This document shows, in pieces, positions 1-47,170 of a stretch of DNA of 64,000 nt. Source of the stretch: Phycisphaerae bacterium (GTDB taxonomy: Bacteria; Planctomycetota; Phycisphaerae; Sedimentisphaerales; Anaerobacaceae); the NCBI GenBank assembly GCA_012744475.1, contig JAAYBV010000096.1:1-64000 (forward strand), in the 5' to 3' direction. The notes beneath the pieces were generated by a model, which saw only the letters and a program-made list of their open reading frames with translations, was not told the origin of the DNA and did not search any database. Numbering within the stretch: the first letter of the stretch is position 1; every line of letters starts with the position of its first letter. A program made the position numbers and the translations under genes.

Positions 1-860
1 AATACGTCAAGGCCGGCGCGGTCGGCGACATCAAGGAGTTCCACACCTGGACGAACCGCCCGATTTGGCCGCAGGGCGGCGATCGTCCGCAAGGGTCGGA
101 TCCCGTCCCTGAGAACCTGGACTGGGAGGCCTGGATCGGACCGGCCCCGATGCGTCCGTACAAGGGCAACCGGGCCTACCACGATTTCAACTGGCGCGGC
201 GTGGTCGACTTCGGCTCCGGGGCCTTGGGCGATATGGCCTGCCACACGACCGATGGAATCTACTCGATCATGAATCCGGGTTACGCGGCCACGGCTGAAC
301 CATTCATTATGACCGGACCCGTCAAGGATCAGTGGCCGGCCGGGATGGTCGTCAAGAGCACTTATCGCGCCAAAGACGGCCGACCCGGGTTCAAGACCTT
401 CTGGTACGAGGGCGTGGACGGAAACGGCAGGCCCTTCATGCCGGATACCCCGGAGGAACTCGAAGTCGACGGACGCCAACTGCCGAGAACGGGCAATCTG
501 ATTATCGGCTCCAAGGGCAAGATGCTGGTCATTGGCGATTACTGGGAAACCCCGATGATCATTCCCGAGGCTCGGCGTAAGGAATTCGGTCGTCCGGCGC
601 AATTGCTCGAACGCTCGCCCGGCCATCACAAGGAGTTCTTCATGGCCTGCCGGGGCGAGAAGCCGCGCGAGTTCAGCCAGTCCAACTTCGGCTACTCCGG
701 GCCCATGGCTGCCAACATTCAGCTCGGCAATCTCTGCGCCCGCGCGGGCAAGAAGCTCGAGCTCAACGAAGCCGGCGAGATCACCAGCGATCCGAAGATC
801 AACGAGTTGGCCTGGCGCGAGCCGCGCGCGGGTTGGGGGCCGCTGGAAATGAAGGTGTAG
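1..860 (+). CDS. Gfo/Idh/MocA family oxidoreductase, 5' truncated by window
   Basis: The reading frame is already open at base 3, so the gene starts upstream and only about 285 C-terminal residues are visible. It belongs to the glucose-fructose oxidoreductase / inositol dehydrogenase family, NAD(P)-dependent sugar oxidoreductases. The visible part has the C-terminal substrate domain only, with TNRPIWPQG, LDWEAWIGPAP and the family block DFGSGALGDMACH, whose Asp and His are usually at the active site. The NAD-binding Rossmann half and any export signal lie outside the window. It heads a run of seven further paralogues on the same strand, 56 bases ahead of the next start, and is probably co-transcribed with it. 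The substrate cannot be read from sequence. Confidence 0.9.
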   Translation, partial: YVKAGAVGDIKEFHTWTNRPIWPQGGDRPQGSDPVPENLDWEAWIGPAPMRPYKGNRAYHDFNWRGVVDFGSGALGDMACHTTDGIYSIMNPGYAATAEPFIMTGPVKDQWPAGMVVKSTYRAKDGRPGFKTFWYEGVDGNGRPFMPDTPEELEVDGRQLPRTGNLIIGSKGKMLVIGDYWETPMIIPEARRKEFGRPAQLLERSPGHHKEFFMACRGEKPREFSQSNFGYSGPMAANIQLGNLCARAGKKLELNEAGEITSDPKINELAWREPRAGWGPLEMKV

Positions 861-916: not shown

Positions 917-2302
<1,386 letters not shown>

Positions 2303-9589: not shown

Positions 9590-10915
9590 ATGATGAGAGA
9601 TAGACGAATCACCAGACGGCAGTTCCTCAGGGGATCGGCGGCGGTAGCCGCGTTCACCTTCGTTCCGCGCCAAGTGCTGGGCGGTCCGAAGTTTGTCGCA
9701 CCCAGCGAGAAACTCAACATTGCCTGCATCGGCGTTGGTGGCATGGGGTCCAGCGACGTCAGCCAGTTTGCCGGCGAGAACATCGTCGCCCTGTGCGACG
9801 TGGACTGGCGGCACGCGGCCGGCACGTTCGAGAGGTTTCCCAACGCCAGAAAGTACCGCGACTTCCGCAAGATGCTCGACACCGAAGACAAGAACATCGA
9901 CGCGGTGAGCGTTTCGACGCCGGACAACATTCATGCCGTCGCGTCGATGGCGGCCATCAAGCGGAACAAGCACGTCTACTGCCAGAAGCCGCTTTGTCAC
10001 GACGTGTACGAAGTGCGGCAGTTGACGCTGGCGGCGCGCGAACACGGCGTGATGACTCAGATGGGCACGCAGCTTCACGCGACGACGGAAATGAAGACGA
10101 TGGTCGAGATCATCCAGTCGGGCGCCATCGGCAACGTACGCAAGGTGGACCTCTGGAGCGGGAAAAACTGGGGCGGCGGCACGCGTCCGACCGACACCCC
10201 GCCCGTGCCCGAAACGCTGGACTGGGATCTCTGGCTCGGACCGGCGCCCTACCGGCCCTATCATCCGACCTATCTGCCCGGCGAGTGGCGGCGCTGGTGG
10301 GATTTCGGCACGGGCACCCTCGGCGATATGGGATGCCATATCATCGACCCGGCGTGGTGGGCGTTGAAGCTCGATGCGCCGACGAGTATCGAAGCGCAGC
10401 CGGAACCGTTCAGCGACGAGACATATCCGACCAAGACGATCATCACCTGGGAGTTCCCCGCACGAGGAAACCTCCCGGCGGTGACGGTGCGCTGGTTCGA
10501 CGGGGACAACCGTCCGCCTCGCCCGGCCGAGCTGGAGGAAGGGCGCAAGCTGCCCGACCAGGGCGGTCTGTACTATGGCGACAAGGGCACGCTCCTGCTG
10601 CCGCACGGCAGTCGGCCGGAGCTGATTCCGTACGCGAAGATGAGAGAGTTCAAACCGCCGGAGCCTTTCCTGCCGCGGGAGAAAGAAGGCGACCGCGGCC
10701 ACTACCTGGAATGGATCCGCGCGTGCAAGGGCGGGCCGAAACCGCTGTCGAATTTCGACTACGCCGGCCCGCTGACCGAGGCGATCCTGCTGGGCAACAT
10801 CGCGGCCAAGGCCGGGCGCAAGATCATGTGGGACAGCGCCGCGCTGAAGGTTACGAACATGTCCGAAATGAATCAGCATTTGAGTCGGAAGTACCGTCAG
10901 GGCTGGACCCTGTAG
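9590..10915 (+). CDS. Tat-exported Gfo/Idh/MocA family oxidoreductase, divergent
   Basis: A 441-residue last oxidoreductase of the tandem array. The Tat motif ITRRQFLRGSAA spans residues 7-18, the Rossmann loop IGVGGMG 47-53, and the catalytic motif is CQKPLCH (K133). It is the most divergent of the array: the conserved GNQGH is GTQLH, TPDH is TPDN, and the TxRPxWPQ block is replaced by LWSGKNWGG. The C-terminal block DFGTGTLGDMGCHIID is normal. It lies 65 bases upstream of the TIM-barrel/DUF1080 fusion, so it may be the oxidoreductase most directly paired with that enzyme. Confidence 0.92.
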   Translation: MMRDRRITRRQFLRGSAAVAAFTFVPRQVLGGPKFVAPSEKLNIACIGVGGMGSSDVSQFAGENIVALCDVDWRHAAGTFERFPNARKYRDFRKMLDTEDKNIDAVSVSTPDNIHAVASMAAIKRNKHVYCQKPLCHDVYEVRQLTLAAREHGVMTQMGTQLHATTEMKTMVEIIQSGAIGNVRKVDLWSGKNWGGGTRPTDTPPVPETLDWDLWLGPAPYRPYHPTYLPGEWRRWWDFGTGTLGDMGCHIIDPAWWALKLDAPTSIEAQPEPFSDETYPTKTIITWEFPARGNLPAVTVRWFDGDNRPPRPAELEEGRKLPDQGGLYYGDKGTLLLPHGSRPELIPYAKMREFKPPEPFLPREKEGDRGHYLEWIRACKGGPKPLSNFDYAGPLTEAILLGNIAAKAGRKIMWDSAALKVTNMSEMNQHLSRKYRQGWTL

Positions 10916-10980
10916 GAACGATGGCGCGAGCGATCTGCGAAATGGACAGCAACCCAATTGTCAGTTCAGGAGAATGTCAG

Positions 10981-13137
10981 ATGAGCAAACGAATGAGAGT
11001 GGGGATCGCTCTGCTGGTGGCAGGGACGTGCATCAGCGTCGCCGGCGTGGCCCGGACGGAGGCGAAGGAGCAATGGCGCCTCGGGACGCAGGCGTACAGC
11101 TTCAATCGCTTCACGTTCTACGAAGCGGTGGCCAAGACCAAATCGGTGGGACTGAAGTACATCGAAGCCTATCCCGGCCAGAAGATCAGCAAGGAGCACG
11201 GTGACGCTACGCTCGATCACAACATGTTGCCCGAGCTGAGGCTCCAGGTTCTGGAGATGCTCAAGGAGCAGGGACTTAAGCTGGTCAACTACGGCGTGGT
11301 GGGCCTGCCGAACAACGAGGGCGAGTGCCGCAAGGTGTTCAATTTCGCGCGCGACATGGGCATCGAGACGATCGTGTCCGAGCCGCCGGAGGACGCCATC
11401 GCTCTGATCGACAGACTCTGCCAGGAGTACAAGATCGGCGTAGCGATCCACAATCACCCGAATCCCTCTCACTACTGGAACCCCGACACCGTGATGAAGG
11501 TCTGCGAGGGTCGCAGCCCGTGGATCGGCGCCTGCGCCGACACCGGGCACTGGAGCCGTTCGGGGGTCGATCCGGTCGAAGCGGTCAAGAAGCTCGGCCG
11601 GGCCGGCAGAATCCGCAGCCTGCACTTCAAGGACCTCAACGAGTTCGGCAACCGCAGCGCCCACGACGTGATCTGGGGCACGGGCGCCAGCAAGGCCGGC
11701 GCCGTCCTGGCGGAACTGGCCTTGCAGAAGTTCGACGGCGTGTTCTCTATCGAATACGAGTACAACTGGGACAATAGCGTGCCGGAAATCGCCGGCTGTG
11801 TGGACTGGTTCCATCGGACCGCCTCGGACCTCGGTGTCAGCAAATGGGACTATCTGTTCGACGGCAAGGGCCTCGGCGCCTGGGACGGCGATCTCCGCCT
11901 GTGGTCGGTCAAGGATGGGGTCATCCGAGGCGAGACGACGCCCGAGAACCCCGCACGGGGCAACACGTTCCTGGTCTATCGCGGCGGCGCGTTCGGCGAT
12001 TTTCACCTGAACCTGAAGTTTCGGATTCTCAGCGGCAATTCCGGCGTGCAGTACCGCAGCAAGGAGTTCGACAAATGGCGGATCAGCGGCTATCAGGCCG
12101 AGGTGGAGAACAATCCCGGTACGGTGGGCTTTCTGTACGACGAGGGCGGGCGTGCCTGGCTGGTCAACGTGGGCGATCTGATGGTGATCGATGAGGCCGG
12201 CGAGAAGGTCGTTCGCGGCCGGGTCAACGACCAGAAACAGCTCGTCGCAGATGGTTACTACAAGGAAAAGGATTGGAACGAATACGACATCATCTGCCAG
12301 GGCAACCACCTCCAGCACTTCCTCAACGGCTATCAGACGATGGAACTGCTCGACAACGACCGTTTGACGGCACCGGGCGATCCGCAGGACCGCAAGGGCG
12401 CCTCGCGCAAAGGGCTGCTAGCCCTACAACTCCACGCCGGCCCGCCGATGATCGTGGAGTTCAAGGACATCCGCGTCAAGCGTCTGTATCCGAAGTACGG
12501 CGACGCCCAACTGGTCTTCAACGGCCAGAACCTCGACGGCTGGGCGGCAAGCACCGGCTCGGGCAAGGCGAACCTGTGGACGGCCGGCAGGGCCAGGGTT
12601 GCTTCGACCGACCCGAAGCAGTTGGAGCAGACCGAAGGAATCGGCGAGCTGATCAATCTGTCGCCCAAGCATGGCGAGAGCCAGGACATCTACTCCAAGG
12701 CGAAATTCGGCGACTGCCGGATCGAGCTGGAGGTCATGGTGCCGCAGGGGTCCAACTCGGGTATCTATGTGATGGGCGAGTACGAGGTCCAGGTGCTGGA
12801 CAGCTACGGCAAGATGCGCATGGGCAACGGGGACATGGGCGCTATCTACGGCGGCTTCTCGCCCCCGGTCAACGCGTCGAAGAAGCCGGGCCAGTGGCAG
12901 CAGTACGTCATCGAGTTCCGAGCGCCGCGATTCGATGCCGATGGCAAGAAGACGCAGAACGCCGAGTTCGTGAAGGTCGAGCTCAACGGCTGTCTGCTTC
13001 ACAAGAACCTCGTCATGCCCCAGCAGACGCCCGGCGGTCTGACGGGTAAGGAATCTCCGGTCGGCCCGCTGATGTTCCAGGGCAACCATGGACCGGTGGC
13101 GTATCGCAACATCATCGTGAAGCCCTTGCTGAATTGA
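10981..13137 (+). CDS. Secreted sugar isomerase/epimerase-like TIM barrel fused to two DUF1080 domains
   Basis: A 718-residue protein; the start at 10981 follows a good AGGAG, although the frame is open far upstream. A Sec-type signal covers about residues 1-28. Residues 31-285 are a xylose-isomerase-like TIM barrel (sugar phosphate isomerase/epimerase family) with candidate metal or substrate residues in HNHP (157-160), DTGH (187-190), HFKD (215-218) and E258. Residues 289-501 and 508-717 are two DUF1080 domains, Pfam's 3-keto-disaccharide hydrolase, each with the FNG/DGxxLxxW start and NSGxxxR/NSGIYV core. Established work on Bacteroides assigns DUF1080 proteins as 3-keto-glucoside lyases and partner TIM barrels as hydratases. 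Here both activities would lie in one chain. The exact reaction is inferred. Confidence 0.88.
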   Translation: MSKRMRVGIALLVAGTCISVAGVARTEAKEQWRLGTQAYSFNRFTFYEAVAKTKSVGLKYIEAYPGQKISKEHGDATLDHNMLPELRLQVLEMLKEQGLKLVNYGVVGLPNNEGECRKVFNFARDMGIETIVSEPPEDAIALIDRLCQEYKIGVAIHNHPNPSHYWNPDTVMKVCEGRSPWIGACADTGHWSRSGVDPVEAVKKLGRAGRIRSLHFKDLNEFGNRSAHDVIWGTGASKAGAVLAELALQKFDGVFSIEYEYNWDNSVPEIAGCVDWFHRTASDLGVSKWDYLFDGKGLGAWDGDLRLWSVKDGVIRGETTPENPARGNTFLVYRGGAFGDFHLNLKFRILSGNSGVQYRSKEFDKWRISGYQAEVENNPGTVGFLYDEGGRAWLVNVGDLMVIDEAGEKVVRGRVNDQKQLVADGYYKEKDWNEYDIICQGNHLQHFLNGYQTMELLDNDRLTAPGDPQDRKGASRKGLLALQLHAGPPMIVEFKDIRVKRLYPKYGDAQLVFNGQNLDGWAASTGSGKANLWTAGRARVASTDPKQLEQTEGIGELINLSPKHGESQDIYSKAKFGDCRIELEVMVPQGSNSGIYVMGEYEVQVLDSYGKMRMGNGDMGAIYGGFSPPVNASKKPGQWQQYVIEFRAPRFDADGKKTQNAEFVKVELNGCLLHKNLVMPQQTPGGLTGKESPVGPLMFQGNHGPVAYRNIIVKPLLN

Positions 13138-13214: not shown

Positions 13215-13243
13215 TTGACAATCCCGACGGCGACCCCCATAAT
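13215..13243 (+). promoter_or_regulatory. Sigma-70 type promoter
   Basis: TTGACA at 13215-13220, a 17-base spacer and CATAAT at 13238-13243, in the gap after the TIM-barrel/DUF1080 gene. The predicted start near 13250 gives a leader of about 60 bases before the gene at 13312. It marks a new transcription unit separate from the oxidoreductase array. Confidence 0.7.
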
Positions 13244-13311
13244 AACGGCCCAAAATTCCGACGGTTTGTCGTGAGTGGATGTGTTACCTTTTTGGAGCGA
13301 ATAAGAGCACA

Positions 13312-14664
13312 ATGAGCGACGAAAAGAAAAACGAAAGAATGGATCGACGCAGCTTCCTGCGGTCCACGGCCGCGGTCGGCGCCGGACTGGCGATCGCCCC
13401 GCGCGTTCTGGCCCAGGCCGGTGGCGCGAAGCCTGACGATATCAACGTGGCCTTGTTGGGCGCTGGCCAGCAAGGGCAGGCGCTGATGGAAGCCGCCCTC
13501 AAGATCCCGGGCGTGCGATTCAAAGCGGTCTGCGACATCTGGGAGGCCTACAATCAGAGGCGTATCTCTCGATATATGGCGCGTTACGGTCACGAGAACA
13601 ACACCTACGTTGACTACAAAGAGATGCTGGACAAGGAGAAGGGCAAGATCGACGCGGTGATCGTCGCGACGCCCGACTTCTGGCACGCCGAGCACGCCAT
13701 CGCCTGCATGGAAGCGGGTCTGCACGTCTACTGCGAGAAGGAAATGTCCAACGAGCTGGCCAAGGCCAAGCAGATGGTCGAGGCCTCGAAGCGGACGGGC
13801 AAGCTCCTGCAAATCGGTCATCAGCGTCGCAGCAATCCTCGCTACATCCACTGCTATGAGAAGCTAATCAAGCAGGCCAATATCCTGGGACGCATGACCA
13901 CGGTCAACGGGCAGTGGAACCGCTCCGCCAGCGAAGATCTGGGCTGGCCCGAGAAGGCCGCCATTCCGGATGACGTGCTCGCCAAGTACGGCTTCAAGAA
14001 CATGGCGCAGTTCCGCAACTGGCGGTGGTACAAGGGCCTCGGCGGCGGTCCGATCGTGGACCTCGGCTCCCACCAGATCGACATCTACAGTTGGTTCATC
14101 GGCTCCAATCCGCGTTCAGTCATGGCCAGCGGCGGGACCGACTACTACGACAAGGCGACGCACGAGTGGTACGACACGATCCTTTCGGTCTTCGAATATG
14201 ACACGCCCAAGGGAGTCGTGCGCGCGTTCTATCAGGTTCTGACGACCAACAGCGCCCAGGCCTACTACGAGCAGTTCATGGGCAACGAGGGCACGCTGGT
14301 GATCTCGGAGTCGGCCAGCCGCGGTCAGGTCTATCGCGAGCCGACGGCCCCCGAGTGGGACAAGTGGGTCAAGCTCGGGTTCGTGAACGAGCCCAAGAAA
14401 GAAGAGGTCAAAGCCGCGGCCGACGCCGTGCTGGATGTGCGCGAGACAGCGGCGCCGCCGGCGTACGAGATCCCGGTCACCATGGAAGGCAAGCCCTACC
14501 ACCAGCCGCACCTGGAGAATTTCTTCAACGCCATCCGCGGCAAAGAGAAGCTCAACTGCCCGGGCGAGATTGGCTATGAATGCGCGGTCACCGTCCTGAA
14601 GGTCAACGAGGCGGTCGAGGCGGCCTGCAAGCTCGAGTTCAAGCCGGAAGAGTTCCACGTTTAG
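13312..14664 (+). CDS. Tat-exported Gfo/Idh/MocA family oxidoreductase, second subfamily
   Basis: A 450-residue protein from a different subfamily than the eight upstream; its closest relative in the window is the gene at 28033. The ATG at 13312 is chosen over one at 13279 because the shorter N-terminus leads directly to the Tat motif MDRRSFLRSTAA (residues 10-21). The Rossmann loop is LGAGQQG (49-55). The EKP motif reads CEKEMSN, keeping lysine 143 but losing the proline. The C-terminal active-site block is GGGPIVDLGSHQID. It is the first gene after a consensus promoter and precedes the cytochrome pair by 69 bases, so electrons from its substrate might enter that chain; this is inference. 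Confidence 0.92.
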   Translation: MSDEKKNERMDRRSFLRSTAAVGAGLAIAPRVLAQAGGAKPDDINVALLGAGQQGQALMEAALKIPGVRFKAVCDIWEAYNQRRISRYMARYGHENNTYVDYKEMLDKEKGKIDAVIVATPDFWHAEHAIACMEAGLHVYCEKEMSNELAKAKQMVEASKRTGKLLQIGHQRRSNPRYIHCYEKLIKQANILGRMTTVNGQWNRSASEDLGWPEKAAIPDDVLAKYGFKNMAQFRNWRWYKGLGGGPIVDLGSHQIDIYSWFIGSNPRSVMASGGTDYYDKATHEWYDTILSVFEYDTPKGVVRAFYQVLTTNSAQAYYEQFMGNEGTLVISESASRGQVYREPTAPEWDKWVKLGFVNEPKKEEVKAAADAVLDVRETAAPPAYEIPVTMEGKPYHQPHLENFFNAIRGKEKLNCPGEIGYECAVTVLKVNEAVEAACKLEFKPEEFHV

Positions 14665-14733
14665 TCGGTGTTTGAGGATATCCGCCCAGTGGTCTGTCAT
14701 CGATGGCACAGCAAGAAAGGAACTGAGATAGCC

Positions 14734-16635
14734 TTGAGAAGAGAACCAATCTTAGCCGCTGTCTTGTTGCTCCTGTTGTCCCTGGCGACGGTTTGGGCGC
14801 AGGAAGCGCCGGAGGCAGAGAAAGCTCTGCTGGGCGACGAGAGCGACGGGAGCCGGGCGCATTCGGTCCATTTGATCCCTCTGATAGCCGAGAATGAAGA
14901 CGGGCAGAAGGGCGATCCGATCAAGCCCGATGCGGATCCTCTGCTGCCTTTCTCGACAAAGTTCACCTGTGGCGAATGCCACAGTTACGACCTGATCCAG
15001 CACGGGTGGCACTTCAACGCGGTCGACGGCAATGTGCCACCCGGCCGGCCGGGCGAACCCTGGATCTATGTGGATAGCAAGCTGGGAATCCAGGTTCCAC
15101 TTTCGTACCGTCCATGGGCCGGGACGATTCAACCGAGTGCGTTTGGGCTGTCGGAATTCGCGTTCACGAAGTTCTTCGGCCGGCACATGCCGGGCGGCGG
15201 ACCGGGCGAAGTCAAGTCGACCGATGTCAAGGACATCGGGCGACAATACGTTTCCGGCAAGCTTCCGATCAACTGCCTGGCCTGCCACAGCGGCCACTAC
15301 GGCCAGGACATGGGAGGCGTCAACGGCTGGGCGGTTCAGATCGCCGTCAAACAGAATTACCGCTGGGCGGCGGCCGGCGCCTGTGAGTTCGCTTCGGTCA
15401 AAGGGTCCGCTGCCGACATGAGCGAGGCGTTCGACCCGTTCATGCCCGAGGGCGACGAAAAAGAGCCGCATGTGGTGTACCACGAAGGCGCGTTCGACGC
15501 CGACAACCAGGTGCTTTTTGACATCGTCCGCGAGGCGCCGAACGAGCGGTGTTACTACTGCCATTCGGATGTCTACTTCAGCGGTGAGGAGAAGACCGAG
15601 AAGTGGTCGTCCGAGGAGGACGTCCATCTGAAGGCCGGCCTGACATGCGTCGACTGCCATCGCAACGCCATCGACCATAACATCGTGCGGGGCTATCCGG
15701 GTGAAGATGAGGTTTCCGACAATCCCCTCGTGGCGACGACAACGTGCGAGGGATGCCATCTGCCCGAGGGATCGGGCGTGCCTGAGGCGGCCCGCCTGGG
15801 TGCGCCGGTGCCTGTGCATGTGGGTTTGCCTCCGGTGCATTTCGAGCGTCTGACCTGCACCGCGTGCCATTCCGGCCCGTGGCCGGGCAATGAGGCGGTC
15901 TACACCAAAACGTCTCGTGCCCATCGCCTGGGCACACCCAACGTGAACAAGGCCGAAGAGATGGTGCCGCACATCTTCTCACCGGTCTTTGCCAAAGACG
16001 GCGAGAAGATCGCGCCGCACAAGACGACTTGGCCCGCCTTCTGGGGCAAGCGCGTCGCCGATGCGGTGACTCCGATCGAGCTGGCCGTGGTCGAGAAGGC
16101 TGTCGGCGGCGCTGTTGGTGAGATTGAGGGTACCGCCAGCGGGACCTGGCCGGGGCTGTCGAAGGAGCAGATCGCCGGCGCTCTGAAGGCGCTGTCGGAG
16201 GCGGCGGATGCCAACGCCGTTTACGTTGCGGGCGGCTCGCTGTACTCCTTGAACGAAGCGGGCCAGATCACAGAGCAGACGGATCATCCGGCCGCGCAGC
16301 CCTACATGTGGCCGCTGGCTCACGCGGTCCGTCCGGCCCCACAGTCGCTGGGAATCCGGTACTGCACCGACTGCCACGCGACCGACTCGCCGTTCTTCTT
16401 CGGCAAGCTGCTCGTCGACAGCCCGGTTGCATCGGAGATCGTCGCGACCAAGGAGATGGTCGGCTTCCAGGGGATCCGTCCGTTCTACGCATGGGCGTTC
16501 TCGGCCTCGTTCGTATTTCGGCCGTGGTTCAAGGTCGTGGCGCTCGGGGCGTCGGCCATCCTGGGCGTGGTGCTGTTGCTGTACGGGCTCAAGGCGCTGG
16601 GAGCCATTGCCAAGGTTCTGGCGGAAGACGAATAG
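14734..16635 (+). CDS. Multihaem c-type cytochrome (seven CXXCH) with C-terminal membrane anchor
   Basis: A 633-residue exported cytochrome. Seven haem-attachment sites are visible: CGECH, CLACH, CYYCH, CVDCH, CEGCH, CTACH and CTDCH. A signal peptide (LAAVLLLLLSLATVWAQ) follows a TTG start at 14734, preferred because it puts that peptide at the N-terminus with an AAAGG site upstream. A GTG at 14668 is the alternative. A single transmembrane helix near the C-terminus (VVALGASAILGVVLLLYGL) anchors it with the haem domain outside. The family resembles tetrathionate-reductase-like and other multihaem electron carriers, but the partner reaction is unknown. The next gene, 24 bases on, encodes a cytochrome-b-like membrane protein, so the two probably form a quinone-linked electron-transfer module. 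Confidence 0.88.
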   Translation: MRREPILAAVLLLLLSLATVWAQEAPEAEKALLGDESDGSRAHSVHLIPLIAENEDGQKGDPIKPDADPLLPFSTKFTCGECHSYDLIQHGWHFNAVDGNVPPGRPGEPWIYVDSKLGIQVPLSYRPWAGTIQPSAFGLSEFAFTKFFGRHMPGGGPGEVKSTDVKDIGRQYVSGKLPINCLACHSGHYGQDMGGVNGWAVQIAVKQNYRWAAAGACEFASVKGSAADMSEAFDPFMPEGDEKEPHVVYHEGAFDADNQVLFDIVREAPNERCYYCHSDVYFSGEEKTEKWSSEEDVHLKAGLTCVDCHRNAIDHNIVRGYPGEDEVSDNPLVATTTCEGCHLPEGSGVPEAARLGAPVPVHVGLPPVHFERLTCTACHSGPWPGNEAVYTKTSRAHRLGTPNVNKAEEMVPHIFSPVFAKDGEKIAPHKTTWPAFWGKRVADAVTPIELAVVEKAVGGAVGEIEGTASGTWPGLSKEQIAGALKALSEAADANAVYVAGGSLYSLNEAGQITEQTDHPAAQPYMWPLAHAVRPAPQSLGIRYCTDCHATDSPFFFGKLLVDSPVASEIVATKEMVGFQGIRPFYAWAFSASFVFRPWFKVVALGASAILGVVLLLYGLKALGAIAKVLAEDE

Positions 16636-16659
16636 ACTCTACTTGGACGAGTGATCAGG

Positions 16660-17319
16660 ATGTTTCAGACCATAGCGATTCTTGTGTTGTTGGCCACCTT
16701 TGTGGGTGTGGTCGTCCACTGGTTCGCCTTTCCGGCCAGTTCCGAGTGCCGGGGCGGTGGGGGCGTCGTTCGTGGAATCGTCCACGTCTTCAGTCTTCTG
16801 CTGATCGAGCAGCGCAACAGCCTGCTGGGGGCTCTCAAGAAGCTGTGCTACCTCCTGACGGTGGTGTGCTTTGTGGTCCTGGCCATCACGGGTTTCTGGC
16901 CGCTGCTGGTGCAAGGCGAGCCGCACATCTCCGGCTACCTCATGATGATCCACGCGACGTTCGCGCCGGTCTTCGCCATCTGTCTGGCGATTCTGGGTAT
17001 CACGTGGGCCAGCCGCTATCGTTTCGCCGGCGGCGACTGCCCTTGTCTGGAGCGGCTGCTGCGCCGCGTGACCCGGCTGCACATCCCGGAACCCCAGGAA
17101 CGCTGCAAATGCGCAACGACCGTCCAGAAGATCGCATTCTGGGCCGTCGTCGCTCTAGCGCTGCCCCTGATCCTTTCGATCGTGCTGAGCATGCTGCCGC
17201 TGTTCGGTACGCATTACCAGGAATTGGCCTTGACGATCCATCGCTGGACGTCCATCGTGTTCTTCGTTGCGGTGATCATTCTTACCTATCTGTCTGTACG
17301 GGTGCGAATCGCGCAGTAA
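16660..17319 (+). CDS. Cytochrome-b-like integral membrane protein
   Basis: A 219-residue protein with about five hydrophobic helices. Histidines lie in or near helices (VVVHWFAF, PHISGYLMMIH, LTIHRWTS), a pattern expected for haem b ligation in cytochrome b561 / formate-dehydrogenase-gamma-like proteins. A cytoplasmic or periplasmic loop carries a Cys cluster (GGDCPCLERLL ... ERCKCATT) that could bind metal. The start is uncertain: ATG 16660 is used, but GTG 16651 is in frame. It directly follows the seven-haem cytochrome. The inferred role is moving electrons between the quinone pool and the periplasmic haem protein. Confidence 0.7.
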   Translation: MFQTIAILVLLATFVGVVVHWFAFPASSECRGGGGVVRGIVHVFSLLLIEQRNSLLGALKKLCYLLTVVCFVVLAITGFWPLLVQGEPHISGYLMMIHATFAPVFAICLAILGITWASRYRFAGGDCPCLERLLRRVTRLHIPEPQERCKCATTVQKIAFWAVVALALPLILSIVLSMLPLFGTHYQELALTIHRWTSIVFFVAVIILTYLSVRVRIAQ

Positions 17320-17601: not shown

Positions 17602-18978
17602 ATGAGCAACGGAGTATTACCAAGTTACCTGAGTATGGCCAAGGCCAACCCGCCCACGAACCGGGCGCCCTGGTACAAGAACACCGCGCCAACCTACGCG
17701 GGCATCTTCCTGTGGTTCGTCTTCTGGAGTGCGGTGGCCAGTGGCGGCGCCGGCGTGGCCGGAGGCATCCTGTCGCAGGGCATCGGCGTCGCGCTGCTGG
17801 GGTTGGTCATTTCAGCGCTGCTGTGCCACTTCCTGTTCTACCTGGTCCCCGGCATGTTGGGACTCCAGACGGGATTGCCGCTCTATGTCGTTGGCAGTTC
17901 GACCTATGGCACGCAGGGTGGACTCATCATGCCCGGTTTCCTCATGGGCATCCTGCAGTTTGGGTGGTTGGGCGTCAATGCGTATGCCTCCTCGATGGCC
18001 CTGGCGCCGCTGTTCAACAACAATCCCGTAGCGCAGAAGATCATTGCCGTCCTCTGGGCGGCCCTGGCTGCCTTTGTCGCCCTCAAGGGCATTCAGTACG
18101 TTGCCAAGGTGGCCACGTACCTGCCTCTGATCCCGGTGGTCATCCTCGTTCTTCTGCTGATCAAGGCGATGGGCGGCCTTGGCGATTTTGACGAAGCCAA
18201 GTTGATGGCGGCCGCTCCGGAGGGTTCCGGCGCCGGCCTGAGCGTGTTTGGCGTCATCGCACTGAGTATCAGCTACATCGTCGGGTTCTTTGCCACCGCT
18301 GGCGCGGCGGGTGTGGATTTCGGCACGAACAGCAGAGACGCCAAGGATGTTCAGATGGGCGGCCTGGTGGGAATTGCGCTGATCACCATTCTTGCCGGCG
18401 GGGCATCCGTCCTGATCGCTGCCGGTGCATTCGGGCTTCTGGGCACCTACGGCCTGAACACCGCAGACCCCGGCTTCATGAGCTCGGTGATGGGTTCTAC
18501 CACTGCCGGCAAGTGGATGGGCTTGCTGCTGGCGGTTGCCGCTTTCCCGTCGGCCTGCTTCTCGTCGTTCATCGCGGCCAACAGCTTCAAGACGACCATG
18601 CCCAAGGTGAACCCTTCGATCTCGGTCGGTATTGGTGCTGCGGTCAGCGCTTTGTTGGCCGTCACCGGTTGGGCGGGTGACCTGGCAAGCGTATTCGGGA
18701 TCATCGGCGCCTCGTTCGGTCCGATCTGCGGCGCGATGATGGTCGACTATTTCCTGGCGGGCAAGAAGTGGGCCGGTCCTCGCAAGGGCTGGAACCAGGC
18801 CGGCTGGATCTCATGGGCCGTCGGATTCATCGTGGGCATCGCACCGCTGGTGGGGCTGGCCAACATCCCGGCTGCGCCGCTGGTGGCCTTCGTCGTCGGT
18901 GCGGTCATCTACTTCGTTCTCGCCAAGGCGGGGCTTCAGCCGCCGGTGGTGCCGATGGCGGGCGCCGACGCGAAATAG
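17602..18978 (+). CDS. NCS1-family (cytosine/purine-type) permease
   Basis: A 458-residue protein with about twelve transmembrane helices. The N-terminal part, with APWYKNTAPTYAGIFLWFVF, the Gly-rich helix ASGGAGVAGG and the block LQFGWLGVNAY, matches the nucleobase:cation symporter-1 family (CodB and purine/cytosine permeases). It would import a nucleobase or a related small heterocycle across the inner membrane using an ion gradient; the substrate cannot be told from sequence. ATG 17602 follows a good TTAGGAGA site. It lies 282 bases after the cytochrome pair and is closed by a strong terminator, so it is probably its own unit or the last gene of the preceding one. Confidence 0.82.
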   Translation: MSNGVLPSYLSMAKANPPTNRAPWYKNTAPTYAGIFLWFVFWSAVASGGAGVAGGILSQGIGVALLGLVISALLCHFLFYLVPGMLGLQTGLPLYVVGSSTYGTQGGLIMPGFLMGILQFGWLGVNAYASSMALAPLFNNNPVAQKIIAVLWAALAAFVALKGIQYVAKVATYLPLIPVVILVLLLIKAMGGLGDFDEAKLMAAAPEGSGAGLSVFGVIALSISYIVGFFATAGAAGVDFGTNSRDAKDVQMGGLVGIALITILAGGASVLIAAGAFGLLGTYGLNTADPGFMSSVMGSTTAGKWMGLLLAVAAFPSACFSSFIAANSFKTTMPKVNPSISVGIGAAVSALLAVTGWAGDLASVFGIIGASFGPICGAMMVDYFLAGKKWAGPRKGWNQAGWISWAVGFIVGIAPLVGLANIPAAPLVAFVVGAVIYFVLAKAGLQPPVVPMAGADAK

Positions 18979-27983: not shown

Positions 27984-28032
27984 CGGAACCTGCGGTTAGA
28001 AGCCCATTGTGCTTGAGGAGAGAGTCTTCCCG

Positions 28033-29361
28033 ATGAACAGGCGGAGTTTTCTTCGTTCTACGGCGGCCGCCGGGACCGGTCTGGTCCTTTCTTCGTCGGT
28101 CAATCCTGTGGCAGGCAATGACAGCAGCGGCGACATCCGCGTTGCTCTGATCGGGGCCGGCACGCAGGGAGAGGTGCTGCTGAACGCCTGCGTCAAGATG
28201 GGGGCCGATTCCGGGATTCGTTTTGCGGCGGTCTGTGATGTCTGGGAGGACCTGAATCTCAAGCGTGTGGCGGGCCTGCTGAGCCGCTATGGCCACGAAG
28301 CCCGCAGCTACGTGGACTGCCGTGAGATGCTCGACCGGGAGAAGGACCTCCATGCGGTGTTGATCGCGACGCCTGATTTCTGCCACACCGAGCAGGCGGT
28401 CGCGTGTCTCGATGCAGGGTTGCACGTCTACTGCGAGACCCCGATGTCGAACACCATCGACGGAGCCCGCCGCATGGTTCAGGCGGCTTGCGAACGAGGC
28501 CGGCTCCTCCAGATCGGTCAGCAGCGGCGCAGTAATCCACGCTATCTCCATTGTCGCACGCAACTGCTGGAAATGGCCGGTCTGCTGGGCCGCCTGACGG
28601 CTGTCAACGGCCAGTGGCATCATCCCGCTCGCGCGGATCGTGGATGGTCGAAACGGTGGGCACTCGACGAGGCGACCCTCTCCAGGCATGGCTACGCCTC
28701 CATGCACCAGTTCAAGAACTGGATGTGGTACAAAGGCCTGGGTTCCGGTCCTGTGGTGGATCTCGGCGTGCATCAGATTGATGTGATCAACTGGTTCCTG
28801 GGCGGTCCGCCCAAAACGATCACCGCACGCGGCGGAACCTACTACTACGAGGCGAAGACGCACGAATGGCCCGACACCGCGATGGCTATCCTGGAGTACG
28901 AGACGGACAAGGGCGTCGTCGCCGTCTCGTATGAAGTGCTCTGCACCAACGGCTACGGCGGACACGCCGAGATCTTCATGGGCGACCAGGGAACGCTGGA
29001 GTTGTCCGAGTCGGCCAGTCGCGGAGGATTGTATCGAGACCCGGAGGCGCCGGACTGGCGCAAGTGGGTGCGCCTCGGTCTACTGAGCGAACCCGACAGC
29101 GAGGCCAAGCCGCAGGCGAGTTCTGCGAACATAGACGTGCAGGAGACCACACCGCCCGCCAGGTACGAAATCCCCATCGCGCTGGACGTCCCTTATCATC
29201 AGCCGCACCTGGCGAACTTTTTCGAGGCGATTCGCGGCCGGACGCGACTGAACTGCTCTGGGGAAGCCGCCTACTCTGGCAACGTCACAGCCCTCAAGAT
29301 TGCCGAGGCCGTCGAGAAGAAGCAGACCCTGGAACTCAGCCCCGACACCTTCCGCGTGTAA
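28033..29361 (+). CDS. Tat-exported Gfo/Idh/MocA family protein lacking the EKP lysine
   Basis: A 442-residue relative of the gene at 13312. ATG 28033 begins MNRRSFLRSTAAAGTG, a minimal Tat signal; a GTG at 28009 is in frame but adds only eight residues. The Rossmann loop is IGAGTQG (40-46). Where the family has EKP, this protein reads CETPMSN with Thr at 136 (codon ACC), so the lysine usually essential for hydride transfer chemistry is absent. The other active-site block, GSGPVVDLGVHQID, is intact. It may be catalytically altered, bind cofactor without turnover, or use another base. It faces a GH36-like gene ten bases away. Confidence 0.9.
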   Translation: MNRRSFLRSTAAAGTGLVLSSSVNPVAGNDSSGDIRVALIGAGTQGEVLLNACVKMGADSGIRFAAVCDVWEDLNLKRVAGLLSRYGHEARSYVDCREMLDREKDLHAVLIATPDFCHTEQAVACLDAGLHVYCETPMSNTIDGARRMVQAACERGRLLQIGQQRRSNPRYLHCRTQLLEMAGLLGRLTAVNGQWHHPARADRGWSKRWALDEATLSRHGYASMHQFKNWMWYKGLGSGPVVDLGVHQIDVINWFLGGPPKTITARGGTYYYEAKTHEWPDTAMAILEYETDKGVVAVSYEVLCTNGYGGHAEIFMGDQGTLELSESASRGGLYRDPEAPDWRKWVRLGLLSEPDSEAKPQASSANIDVQETTPPARYEIPIALDVPYHQPHLANFFEAIRGRTRLNCSGEAAYSGNVTALKIAEAVEKKQTLELSPDTFRV

Positions 29362-43970: not shown

Positions 43971-44972
43971 CTATTGGTCGTGTCTAATGCGGATGGTGTC
44001 ACCGGCGTCGATCAGCTCGAAGAGGCAGGCCCGTTCGTCCGGGCTGCGGTTGGGGCAGTGCAGCAGGAGCCTGAGGGTCCCGTCGAAGGCCCGGAAGATC
44101 ATCCCGTGACCGCCGTCGTCTCGGAAGAGTGGATCGGGCAGGTGGACCCAGGGACCCTGCACCCGACCTGACTTCGAGGCGGCGATGCCTGTGGTGTACC
44201 CGCTGTCGGTGAAGCTGGACCAGATCATCAGCAGCCTTCCCGTTCGGGTCCGGTAGAGACATGGCCCGTCGGTCACATACCGGTCCCGGCCTTCGGGGGT
44301 CCAGGGGGCGTCGCTGGCTTTGAACAGCATGATTGGCGGCCCGGCTACGTCGGACAAGTCGTCTCTGAGCCGGACCAGGTCGATTGTGCCGTCTCTAACC
44401 TGGACCCATTCATGACAGTAGATCATATAGGGGATGCCGTCCTCCACCCACAGGGTCCCGTCGAGGGCCATCAGGTTGGGATCAGTATGCGATCGATTGG
44501 CGAACGGCTGGAACGGGCCCATCGGCGAATCCGCGACGAGCACCTGCGTGCCCCGCGCGGTCTTTTCGGGCCAGTCGGGCCAGGGCTCATCGGGCAGCCT
44601 GCGACTGCCGTTCATCGTGGCGAACAGGTAGTGCTTGCCCCCGTAGCGGTGCATCTCAGGGGCCCAGATGTGGCCCTGCGCCCAGAAGTCGGGCCCGATC
44701 TCGAATATCGGGTATGGCCCGATCCACGTCCGCAGGTCCTTGCTGGTCAGCACGGAGACCCCATTCGCCGTCGAGTCGGCGGGTCTCACGGAGCTGGTGA
44801 CGAGGTGGTACGTCTGCGTCGCCTGGTCCGCGAGGATGAAGGGATCGCGCAGCCGCGTCTCGGCCAGCGTAAAGGTGCGGGTCTCATGGGCCGCCGGGGC
44901 CGGGATCGCTCCCGACCCGATGGCAAAGCACCAGACAAGCAGAATTGTGTGAGCGGGTGTTTGCGCCATCAT
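43971..44972 (-). CDS. Secreted GH43-like glycoside hydrolase
   Basis: A 333-residue five-bladed beta-propeller-type enzyme. It starts at ATG 44972, whose ATGA overlaps the GH27 stop, and has a signal peptide (ILLVWCFAIGSGAIPAPAA). Visible motifs are LRDPFILAD with the candidate catalytic base Asp43, GHIWAPEMHRYGGKHYLF (transition-state Asp/Glu region), HTDPNLMALDG and VTDGPCLYRTRTGRLLMIWSS. The usual general acid of GH43 lies in an EGP motif; here it reads DGP, so the subfamily is atypical. Likely substrates are arabinosyl or xylosyl linkages, but this is not certain. It forms an operon with the GH27 enzyme. Confidence 0.8.
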   Translation of the reverse strand: MMAQTPAHTILLVWCFAIGSGAIPAPAAHETRTFTLAETRLRDPFILADQATQTYHLVTSSVRPADSTANGVSVLTSKDLRTWIGPYPIFEIGPDFWAQGHIWAPEMHRYGGKHYLFATMNGSRRLPDEPWPDWPEKTARGTQVLVADSPMGPFQPFANRSHTDPNLMALDGTLWVEDGIPYMIYCHEWVQVRDGTIDLVRLRDDLSDVAGPPIMLFKASDAPWTPEGRDRYVTDGPCLYRTRTGRLLMIWSSFTDSGYTTGIAASKSGRVQGPWVHLPDPLFRDDGGHGMIFRAFDGTLRLLLHCPNRSPDERACLFELIDAGDTIRIRHDQ

Positions 44973-46954
44973 TGTCCCCCTTGGGCCGGGAAGAGGCGCA
45001 GGAGCATGACGCCGTGCCTGGGCACTTCCGCTCCGAACTGGTTGCGGAAGACGCCGATGTCCTTCTGCCGCCAGAGGTCCCTGACGCGCATCGGGCCGCT
45101 GAGCTTCAGATCCGACCACTCGGCGACGACGGTCTTGGGCGTTTCATCGCGGTTGAACAGGCCCACCGCGGTCGAGCCGTCTTCCATCGGCTTGGCCCAG
45201 ACCTCCAGCGAGCCGTCCTGGGCGATGCGTGCGGCCTGCCGGCCCAGCGGGTCCTGGTTGACCTCCAGCACCTCATCGTTCGTCAGCAGGTTCATCGTAA
45301 AGTCATCCAACTGGGTCAGGTCGCACCCGATCAGCAGCGGCGAGCACAGCAGACACCACAGGCTGATGTGCGTGTACTGCTCGTTCGGCGTCAGACGGCT
45401 TTCACGCAGGCTCGGACCCCAGCCGACCTTGCCTACGACCAGCATGTCCGGATCGTTCCAGTGGCCCGGCGACGCGTAGGGCGAACATTCCGCCTGGGCA
45501 AAGCCGATGCCGGCCATGCTGCCCCAGGAATCGGTGATGTCGCCCGTGGTGCGCCAGCAGTTGCCGCCGACCTCCGTGCCCCATTTCCAGACTTCGCCCA
45601 TCCCGTACTGGCACAGACTGTAGACGATGTCGCGATCGATGCGGTCCAGGCAGCCTCGCATGAAGATGTACGGCTCTTTCATCTGCTCCAGCGTGGGCCG
45701 GCCGACGATCTCGCTATAGCCGCACCAGTCGTATTTCAGATAGTCGAAGCCCCAGTCGGCAAAACTCTGCGCATCGTGCAGTTCATGCTGCCAGCTTCCC
45801 TCGTAGCGCTGGCACGTCGATGGGCCTGGCGAGATATAGACGCCGACTTTCAGGCCGAGATTATGGATGTAGTCCGTCAGCGCCTTCATGTCCGGAAATC
45901 TCGCGTTCGTCAGGATGCGGCCGCAATCGTCGCGCGTGGGCCCGCCGACGACGGGATCGTCGGAGCCGAGCTTCTTCATCCAGCAGTCGTCGATGTTGAT
46001 GTACTGCCAGCCGTGGTGGATCAGGCCGCTTGAGACCATCGCTTCGGCCGCGTGGCGGATCTTCTGCTCGTCAATCGCGCAGCCCCAGCAGTTCCAACTG
46101 TTCCAGCCCATCGGAGGTGTCAGCGCGATCGTGTTCCCGACGATGAGCCGCATCGTGCGTCGAGCCTCGCCGACATCGTTCCGCGCGATCAGCGTGATCG
46201 GATACTCGCCAGGCTGGGTCAGCCGACCCGTGATGCGTCCCGACTCCGCATTGACCGAGAGCCCGGCAGGCAAGCCCTCGGCGTGGAAGCCCATGGGACG
46301 CTGCCCGCTGGCGGCGATGGTGTAGAGGACCGGCGAGCCCGGCCGGACGCCGAACACCTTGGCGCTGTTGATTCGAGGCTCGGGTCCCGGCTTGGGCGTC
46401 AGGATGATCGCCTCCTCCTTCGGCCCGTCGATCGTTTCGGGCATCCTCCCGACGACGGTGAACGCCGCATTTGCCCAGTCGGCGTGGTCGAAGTTGATTC
46501 CGTCTTTGCCTCGGCCGACCAGAAGAATCAAGGTGTCCATGCCGGTGACGTCGATGTCCACTTCTTGCGCCGGCTGGCCCGCCTTCATCGTGTCGGTCTT
46601 TAAGATCTCCTTGCCGTCGCCCAGGATGCGGAACGTCACGGTTCCGAACCGCCCGGCCTCGTCGTCCAGGCCGACCATCGCGGTGAATCGCGTGCTTCCC
46701 CCCGCCAGCTTGACGTACAGAGCGCTGTCGGCATGGGTGCCCAGTCCGCGGTCGAAGGTCCGCCCCGCGATTCGCAGCGGGTTTCCGTCTACGGACTTGT
46801 CCTTTTGCGGCTCACCCCAGCCCTGCTGGGTCTTGCTGATATCCAGGTCGGAAAGCCAGACCTTCCTGCCCTGGGAAGAGGTTTCGGCGGCGGCAGCCCA
46901 ACTGGCGGCAACGATGCCCATGCACAGCAGGGCCGGTAGGTGACGGAGCTTCAT
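44969..46954 (-). CDS. Secreted GH27 alpha-galactosidase with NPCBM and putative-Ig domains
   Basis: A 661-residue exported enzyme releasing terminal alpha-D-galactose. ATG 46954 has GAAAGGA upstream. A signal peptide (~1-23) is followed by an NPCBM-type carbohydrate module (~30-168, with FDRGLGTHADSALYVKL), a putative-Ig domain (~195-272, with GLPAGLSVNAESGRITG) and the catalytic barrel from ~278 (ALTPPMGWNSWNCWG). The nucleophile is Asp409 in YLKYDWCGY; ITDSWG is near the expected acid/base, and NDPDML is the family block. It is first in an operon with the GH43-like gene and has its own promoter. Confidence 0.92.
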   Translation of the reverse strand: MKLRHLPALLCMGIVAASWAAAAETSSQGRKVWLSDLDISKTQQGWGEPQKDKSVDGNPLRIAGRTFDRGLGTHADSALYVKLAGGSTRFTAMVGLDDEAGRFGTVTFRILGDGKEILKTDTMKAGQPAQEVDIDVTGMDTLILLVGRGKDGINFDHADWANAAFTVVGRMPETIDGPKEEAIILTPKPGPEPRINSAKVFGVRPGSPVLYTIAASGQRPMGFHAEGLPAGLSVNAESGRITGRLTQPGEYPITLIARNDVGEARRTMRLIVGNTIALTPPMGWNSWNCWGCAIDEQKIRHAAEAMVSSGLIHHGWQYINIDDCWMKKLGSDDPVVGGPTRDDCGRILTNARFPDMKALTDYIHNLGLKVGVYISPGPSTCQRYEGSWQHELHDAQSFADWGFDYLKYDWCGYSEIVGRPTLEQMKEPYIFMRGCLDRIDRDIVYSLCQYGMGEVWKWGTEVGGNCWRTTGDITDSWGSMAGIGFAQAECSPYASPGHWNDPDMLVVGKVGWGPSLRESRLTPNEQYTHISLWCLLCSPLLIGCDLTQLDDFTMNLLTNDEVLEVNQDPLGRQAARIAQDGSLEVWAKPMEDGSTAVGLFNRDETPKTVVAEWSDLKLSGPMRVRDLWRQKDIGVFRNQFGAEVPRHGVMLLRLFPAQGGQ

Positions 46955-46993
46955 GGCGGGTCCTTTCAAAACCTTCCGTAACTCGATGGGGCA

Positions 46994-47023
46994 AGAATAT
47001 CCGCTCTGGAGGGGGTGTTTCAA
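46994..47023 (-). promoter_or_regulatory. Probable promoter for the GH27-GH43 operon
   Basis: On the minus strand TTGAAA (47023-47018), an 18-base spacer and TATTCT (46999-46994). Transcription near 46987 gives a leader of about 33 bases. The divergent gene at 47171 lies upstream, so the 216-base gap is a shared intergenic control region. Confidence 0.6.
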
Positions 47024-47170
47024 GGGTTTTCTGCCGGCGGGACAACGTACGCGGCCAGACGGTGGCCCGGTGTTTCTGCTGTCCTTTTTCACCTTCTTGT
47101 GCTTATCCGACGCGCCTGGAATGCCGAAGAACAAACGACATAGTCCCGATTCTCAGGGAGGTAAAACGCC

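Follow-up and report, generated by a model that had tools for sequence, protein, structure and literature searches.

A TIM barrel joined to two divergent DUF1080 domains in a Sedimentisphaerales gene cassette: a candidate enzyme for non-hydrolytic glycoside cleavage

Glycosides can be degraded by a route of oxidation, elimination, hydration and reduction, whose standing as an alternative to glycoside hydrolases was recognised only recently and in which the assignment of domains to steps is still being settled. In Agrobacterium tumefaciens the barrel protein AtOGE is described as an eliminase specific for β-glucosides, its Mn2+ held by His132 (strand β5), Asp163 (β6), His189 (β7) and weakly by Glu233 (β8), with His134 as the catalytic residue (PMC10628242), and a high abundance of DUF1080 domains has been reported for Planctomycetes (PMC5673643). 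Titles of DUF1080 entries in the PDB read '3-Keto-2-hydroxy-glucal-hydratase' (8tda, 8v31) or 'eliminase/hydratase' (8rr2, 9fbe); reports on levoglucosan eliminase and hydratase, with LgdB2 said to do both (PMC10066097), and on BT2157 and BT2158 deletions that grew normally on raffinose-family sugars (PMC11501099) have no direct bearing here. The subject of this report is a gene in a 64,000-nucleotide stretch of a Phycisphaerae bacterium (contig JAAYBV010000096.1, hereafter the window) whose single reading frame joins a triose-phosphate isomerase (TIM) barrel to two DUF1080 domains, termed D1 and D2. With a probability that we put at roughly 0.65, the fused protein is a periplasmic enzyme for the middle two steps of a non-hydrolytic glycoside pathway. 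The fusion itself, a conserved and lineage-restricted joining of known parts within a known type of pathway, is real, and the divergence of its sister domains is informative. Its make-up is as follows.

10981–13137, forward strand: fused TIM barrel–DUF1080–DUF1080 gene, 718 residues, stop codon at 13135–13137
10968–10972, forward strand: Shine-Dalgarno-like AGGAG, read directly, 8 nt 5′ of the ATG at 10981
11059–11844, forward strand: AP_endonuc_2 TIM barrel, about residues 27–288, with ligand set H157, D187, H215, E258 and catalytic-type H159
11845–12489, forward strand: D1, the first DUF1080/PF06439 domain, residues 289–503, with Q372/E374 and H485
12490–13134, forward strand: D2, the second DUF1080/PF06439 domain, residues 504–718, with E602/Q604 and N702-H703

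That a barrel and two DUF1080 domains share one chain of 718 residues, as a preliminary description made from the letters alone had claimed, is borne out by Pfam. A full-chain scan placed AP_endonuc_2 at residues 51–263 (E 3.8e-15) and PF06439 as two stretches (E 7.5e-70), and the domains scanned singly all exceeded the curated cut-offs, the barrel with E 1.9e-16 (60.9 bits against PF01261, AP_endonuc_2, cut-off 31.1), D1 with E 2e-36 and D2 with E 2e-33 (126.2 and 116.4 bits against the PF06439 cut-off of 26.8). The two DUF1080 copies are indeed clearly diverged, as the contrast between NSGVQYR (residues 353–359, D1) and NSGIYVM (residues 592–598, D2) had suggested: a profile comparison of D1 with D2 gave a probability of 71.5 and an E-value of 3.6e-5. 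An AlphaFold2 model of the fused protein, built on a 54-row alignment, reached a mean predicted local distance difference test score (pLDDT) of 88.9 and a predicted template modelling score of 0.82, with residues 1–28 below 50; the N-terminus, approximately residues 1–27 (MSKRMRVGIALLVAGTCISVAGVARTEA), is Sec-type signal-like as judged by eye.

The predicted barrel superposes on PDB entry 3p6l with Z 38.6 and a root-mean-square deviation of 1.2 over 252 residues at 44% identity. Its residues H157, H159, D187, H215 and E258 lie at the ends of strands 5–8 in the model and are invariant in 42 of 42 aligned barrel rows, made up of 36 of 66 barrel stretches and six fused proteins. They reproduce the pattern of AtOGE- and CGE-like barrels, with His-x-His on strand 5, Asp on 6, His on 7 and Glu on 8, the correspondence being one of strand order rather than of superposition. 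The intact ligand set points to a metalloenzyme, and by itself picks neither eliminase nor hydratase. Indeed, Foldseek also finds AtHYD (8ro4), a hydratase barrel of the same pathway, with the barrel of the fused protein; neither AtOGE nor AtHYD was among the 6 sequences found by the barrel profile at E <= 0.001, and AtOGE had no match to the barrel among the 50 rows listed in Foldseek or VIA. Those listings also include epimerases and IolE, members of a broad superfamily, and the barrel has a weak TIGR04379 match, so that a role in another pathway, such as one that epimerises or dehydrates a sugar or inositol, has to be considered; it is improbable, since the gene stands in a conserved cassette with BT_2158-like dehydrogenases and DUF1080 domains.

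Structure comparison of the whole model reached the barrel only, and D2 was therefore folded separately (pLDDT 93.3). The resulting model matches the uncharacterised 4qhz (Z 22.1) and, among entries of the BT2157 kind, 9fbe (21.1), 3osd (19.7), 8rr2 (19.2) and 8tda (19.0); for D1, profile comparison with the PDB ranked the first domain of 4jqt (BT3469) highest. A Ca2+ site is presumably also a feature of the BT2157-type eliminase/hydratase. An H275N variant of a Bacteroides lyase is described as having lost hydration. At one and the same position 3osd reads QDHG and 9fbe QDNG, the last aligned residue is numbered 290, and BT2157 is given as 290 residues long (PMC11003636); His275 can thus be equated with the His of QDHG, and the structure entries suggest that the lyase carrying H275N is BT2157. 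In D1 the equivalent of His275 is H485, kept in 18 of 18 rows. In D2 it is N702 in 14 of 14 aligned rows, followed by H703, which might act as a stand-in; in the structural alignment, model residue 214 (residue 717 of the chain) pairs with residue 290, which places residue 702 on 275 if the last 16 residues are gapless. The Glu of the PEYQ/YEVQ motif shows the reverse distribution, being Gln in D1 (Q372, with the acid E374 two residues later) and Glu in D2 (E602). Three putative DUF1080 active-site positions are marked in a figure of PMC9765024 and left unnamed in the available portion of its text.

This arrangement is not peculiar to the window. Among 34 tandem D1-D2 frames, D1 combines Gln with His in all 34, and D2 combines Glu with Asn in 32, with Asp in one (L159) and with His in one (L158). 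Across 176 DUF1080 stretches from the fetched loci (differing in letters but with near-copies included; stretches below 60 bits or with an incomplete profile were dropped), 60 carry Glu and His, 66 Gln and His, 50 Glu and another residue, and none Gln and another residue, a pattern inflated by shared ancestry. The opposition of Gln plus His in D1 to Glu plus Asn in D2 suggests that the copies diverged in a complementary way, not by simple decay. A different tandem family (L093, L096, L099) has a Gln and His copy followed by a Glu and Glu copy, with QSEG or QAEG at the His275-equivalent position; four other tandem proteins and one triple show other residue combinations, with His present in every copy, and the window's own genome contains a frame of three DUF1080 copies in a row, all with Glu and His (L017:973–3543).

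The possibility that the barrel is the sole enzyme, and that D1, D2 or both are sugar-binding modules that hold the glycan, draws on several of these data: CBM66 binding modules are among the matches of the D2 model (4azz, Z 15.1), DUF1080 and CBM66 annotations are said to overlap in a paper on Thermogutta (PMC5673643), D2 is without the His of hydration, and D1 is without the common Glu. We regard it as rather unlikely, since D2 is closer to the hydratase or eliminase/hydratase entries (Z 19.0–21.1), since the aligned rows do not vary at NSG, a Trp, a Tyr, His485, Glu602, Asn702 or His703, and since none of the 176 stretches has lost both Glu and His. Loss of the catalytic residues and of the metal ligands, which the preliminary description had named as speaking against its proposal, is likewise not what we find, the barrel ligands being present and each DUF1080 domain keeping one of the two conserved residues.

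How the two steps are shared among the three domains is harder to settle. The preliminary description had the barrel as hydratase and the DUF1080 domains as lyases, and in that form the assignment is not supported: the titles of DUF1080 entries name a hydratase or an eliminase/hydratase, and each of the two steps has a barrel to its credit (AtOGE as eliminase, AtHYD as hydratase), so that this split is only one option. The most likely division would be elimination by the barrel and D2, with hydration by D1, which keeps the His, and/or by the barrel. A more specific proposal, to be held tentatively and with well under even odds, is that D1 and D2 descend from one ancestral bifunctional eliminase/hydratase and have split its work into complementary half-functions, D2 being H275N-like and only eliminating, D1 or the barrel hydrating the released 2-hydroxy-3-keto-glycal, and the whole forming an exported one-polypeptide relay that serves the dehydrogenase array described below. 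Were D2 to act like H275N, the glycal would be released and then hydrated by D1 or the barrel, and the fusion would thereby gain a rationale. The preliminary description further supposed that a fused enzyme would channel this unstable intermediate, and that the two DUF1080 copies may act on different anomers or one of them only bind; these are conjectures that the complementary residues of D1 and D2 leave as possibilities.

Alternatively, the domains may divide anomers rather than steps, the barrel being an eliminase of β-glycosides and one or both DUF1080 domains an eliminase of α-glycosides and hydratase, so that the fusion widens the substrate range and involves no hand-over of an intermediate. 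We assume here that BT2157 prefers α-glycosides and that BT2156 is a barrel protein. The β-glucoside specificity of AtOGE (PMC10628242), the eliminase/hydratase titles, and the reported conversion of glucosinolates in vitro by BT2158 with either BT2156 or BT2157 (PMC12385236) fit this alternative. D1 and D2, however, both differ from BT2157 at a conserved position; we consider an anomer division possible but on balance doubtful.

The preferred reading, a periplasmic enzyme for the two middle steps, draws further on the neighbouring genes, which are listed here with their scores against NF058561, the BT_2158 glycoside 3-dehydrogenase model.

917–2302, forward strand: Gfo/Idh/MocA protein with twin-arginine motif, glycoside 3-dehydrogenase-like, 591 bits
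2284–3795, forward strand: Gfo/Idh/MocA protein, glycoside 3-dehydrogenase-like, 452 bits
3792–5303, forward strand: Gfo/Idh/MocA protein, glycoside 3-dehydrogenase-like, 552 bits
5325–6749, forward strand: Gfo/Idh/MocA protein, glycoside 3-dehydrogenase-like, 506 bits
6737–8164, forward strand: Gfo/Idh/MocA protein, glycoside 3-dehydrogenase-like, 486 bits
8175–9548, forward strand: Gfo/Idh/MocA protein, glycoside 3-dehydrogenase-like, 526 bits
9590–10915, forward strand: Gfo/Idh/MocA protein, glycoside 3-dehydrogenase-like, 449 bits
13279–14664, forward strand: Gfo/Idh/MocA protein of another kind, with twin-arginine motif, a candidate 3-keto-sugar reductase by position only
3–857, forward strand: eighth glycoside 3-dehydrogenase-like gene, cut by the contig start, so that the array has at least 8 genes

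NF058561 is by far the best NCBIfam model for the seven whole upstream proteins, which are 51–61% identical to one another and are encoded at spacings of −19 to +41 nt, with 65 nt separating the last from the fused gene. The downstream Gfo/Idh/MocA gene starts 141 nt after the fused gene, and its product is 25–30% identical to the seven. A pattern search finds a twin-arginine motif in all eight whole Gfo/Idh/MocA genes, making a periplasmic location of the pathway likely as far as such motifs can tell; for the use of lactose by Caulobacter, too, a periplasmic DUF1080 step has been proposed (PMC9007349). In this setting the array dehydrogenases would oxidise glycosides at C3 to 3-keto-glycosides, the fused enzyme would eliminate the aglycone and hydrate the glycal, and reduction of the 3-keto sugar would fall to the downstream Gfo/Idh/MocA protein. 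The role in elimination plus hydration put forward in the preliminary description fits this cassette, with its dehydrogenase-like genes upstream, a Gfo/Idh/MocA gene downstream and barrel metal ligands intact.

The layout recurs in relatives. Among 16 fused loci, the window included, a dehydrogenase relative above 500 bits lies directly upstream in 14, the exceptions being L186 and L199, the latter with N gaps. All 14 of these fused loci that have downstream sequence show the second Gfo/Idh/MocA type as the next gene scored on that side (L186 and L188 stop at the contig end, and the window's own two neighbours served as queries), at a distance of 1.7 kb in L190. In seven of the 16 (L187, L189, L190, L192, L195, L197, L198) a single DUF1080 gene heads the array, and upstream dehydrogenases are present in the fused loci L061, L062, L064 and L065 as well. 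Parts of the pathway are also adjacent as separate genes in split relatives and in Parabacteroides; relatives of all parts of a putative four-step locus (oxidoreductases, lyase and hydratase) are grouped in the window and its relatives, the dehydrogenases scoring below their cut-off. Next to three stand-alone barrels, the three scanned, dehydrogenases do exceed the BT_2158 cut-off of 750 (835 in L118, 821 in L126 and 846 in L128). One locus holds a 1137-residue frame with two barrel domains among seven Gfo/Idh/MocA frames (L100:5032–8442).

Several observations weigh against the proposed role. The seven upstream proteins, at 449–591 bits, fall below the NF058561 cut-off of 750, for which reason we infer their substrate and reaction rather than read them from the model. 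Export of the Gfo/Idh/MocA proteins rests on a motif pattern that occurs as far as 52 residues from the start of the listed frame, and the Pfam model for twin-arginine translocation signals is passed by 9590–10915 only, with 13279–14664 just missing it and the others giving no match. As the window's genome contains 90 NF058561 matches at E <= 0.001, adjacency in a single genome would mean little alone. The fused locus L063 lacks the second Gfo/Idh/MocA type in the 6 kb downstream (0.9 kb of upstream sequence being covered), L186 has no strong upstream dehydrogenase, and only five of 49 loci with a DUF1080-free barrel (L117, L118, L124, L126, L128) have a dehydrogenase relative above 500 bits directly upstream, so that barrel and dehydrogenase are only loosely associated beyond the fused and split loci. 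Of the two conserved positions, D1 and D2 each have one that differs from BT2157, and activity is known for no close relative. Moreover, a DUF1080 protein of Thermogutta is described as an endo-glucanase active on xanthan, with 0.12–1.48 U/mg on xanthan and lichenan (PMC10881899; also PMC9007349), and GH16 glucanases are structural neighbours of D2 (Z 13–14), from which one might suppose that the DUF1080 domains hydrolyse a polysaccharide as endo-glycoside hydrolases of the ordinary kind and that the barrel takes the released sugar. This is highly improbable, given that the BT2157-type entries are closer to D2 (Z 19–21) and that the cassette is rich in Gfo/Idh/MocA dehydrogenases, which hydrolysis does not need.

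Of the 161 genomes searched in the order, 108 match at E <= 1e-60, and the full three-domain frame is present in 19, among them that of the window, all 19 belonging to the window's family; the same domain order, which the preliminary description had suggested looking for in other genomes, is thereby found. Its statement that the domains are normally encoded by separate genes holds for a Parabacteroides record (L141) and fails within the window's family, where the fused frame is common. Of 199 sampled genomes from the phylum, with at most five candidates scored per genome, 72 have a match at E <= 1e-20; the window's own is the only full-length one among the matches listed. A contig scan covering 80 of 186 matches yielded five complete three-domain frames (L061–L065), with L068 interrupted by an N gap. 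Among plasmid records there was no long match, none of 25 records covering more than 80% of the query. Split counterparts take the form of two adjacent genes, one for a barrel that bears a third type of DUF1080, the other for D1-D2 behind a signal-like start (L066, L067, L069, L072, L075, L076); the barrel gene of this kind also occurs with no D1-D2 neighbour, as in L079, L092 and L101. In one genome (G216) a barrel is joined straight to a D2-type DUF1080 domain, with no D1 and in a cassette of its own (L200:983–2506), and a split pair is present as well (L201). Searches of one open-licence library of papers gave no title or abstract opening that reports a fusion of barrel and DUF1080.

On whether the fusion arose once or several times the evidence is divided, the trees favouring several events and the common junction favouring one. 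Placing the fused rows on one side of a single branch is rejected by the approximately unbiased (AU) test both in a barrel tree of 32 rows (p 0.005, the bootstrap not settled) and in a D1-D2 tree of 14 rows (p 9e-47), the latter with L071 and L073, both truncated at a contig end, scored as split. After removal of L071, L073 and L162, a D1-D2 tree of 20 fused and 11 split rows (31 in all) gave an AU p of 1e-134 for the split rows and five changes of state (bootstrap range 3–6), at least three of them forced by starred branches; a 34-row tree that includes these three rows of uncertain state (L162 from an N-gapped region) gave nine. L063 groups with the window by its barrel (100/98) and with split genes in the 14-row D1-D2 tree (94/96), and is unplaced in the 31-row tree. 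The junction, on the other hand, has a 3-residue gap between the profile ends in 26 of 26 listed fused rows (duplicates and the gapped L068 and L167 included, the window's own row not among them), and D1 starts with W-x-[WYR]-[IL]-F in fused rows versus W-x-[SVRP]-[LP]-F in split genes. Such a common junction would speak for a single fusion and for fission, exchange or differential loss at a later time; the argument is a modest one, because the two profiles were built in such a way that their ends almost meet, and because Arg is found in the fused as well as in the split pattern.

An assembly chimera, by comparison, can be ruled out. Many relatives are metagenome assemblies by title, and N gaps occur in L068, L199, L202 and L203, yet the fusion recurs in one frame in the 19 genomes and with the same linker across the 26 listed rows, leaving such an artefact a negligible chance.

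Elsewhere in the window, a promoter-like TTGACA-17-CATAAT (11/12) lies at 13215–13243 (forward strand) in the gap that separates the fused gene from the Gfo/Idh/MocA gene after it, the promoter scan as a whole having found 3 where 2.8 were expected by chance. Directly past the cassette, 14668–17319 (forward strand) encodes a multihaem cytochrome c-like protein and then a cytochrome b561-like one, a pair possibly engaged in electron transfer, whether related to the cassette or not. Further forward-strand genes are a relative of NCS1-type transporters at 17602–18978 (49.5 bits against a family cut-off of 353, with no Pfam match) and, at 28009–29361 and outside the cassette, another relative, at 551 bits, of the Gfo/Idh/MocA type that follows the fused gene; an alpha-galactosidase-like protein with NPCBM and Ig-like domains is encoded at 44969–47134 on the reverse strand.

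The interest of the fused protein lies in the joining of its domains and in the divergence of D1 from D2, the parts themselves being known from other bacteria. As a natural fusion it would physically couple the middle steps of the route, and in its two DUF1080 copies nature may have run the experiment of parting elimination from hydration. The array of seven complete dehydrogenase-like paralogues, with a truncated eighth, before a single fused enzyme suggests many entry enzymes leading to a common cleavage enzyme; the same genome has 38 matches to PF06439.

Set against known systems, D2 has the PF06439 fold of the BT2157 kind (3osd, together with 8tda, 8rr2 and 9fbe, equated by sequence matches and numbering; Z 19.0–21.1), with the His275-equivalent kept in D1 and the Glu of PEYQ kept in D2. 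BT2157, however, has a single DUF1080 domain where the fused protein has two and a barrel besides, with Asn for His275 in D2 and Gln for Glu in D1. The uncharacterised BT3469 (4jqt) likewise carries two PF06439 domains in one chain, but its solved chain is without a barrel, and its second copy reads QDHG where the fused protein reads QGNHG. The barrel BDI_1903 (3p6l) of Parabacteroides distasonis is an uncharacterised stand-alone protein, 44% identical to that of the fused protein, whereas AtOGE and AtHYD, as described, share the barrel fold, and AtOGE the ligand types as well, both being separate proteins. Finally, in P. distasonis NZ_OY725812.1 (L141) a DUF1080-DUF1080 protein, a Gfo/Idh/MocA protein and a barrel (isomerase) are neighbours, but in separate genes, and the tandem DUF1080 copies read Glu-Gln with His and Gln-Glu with His, unlike the D1 and D2 of the fused protein.

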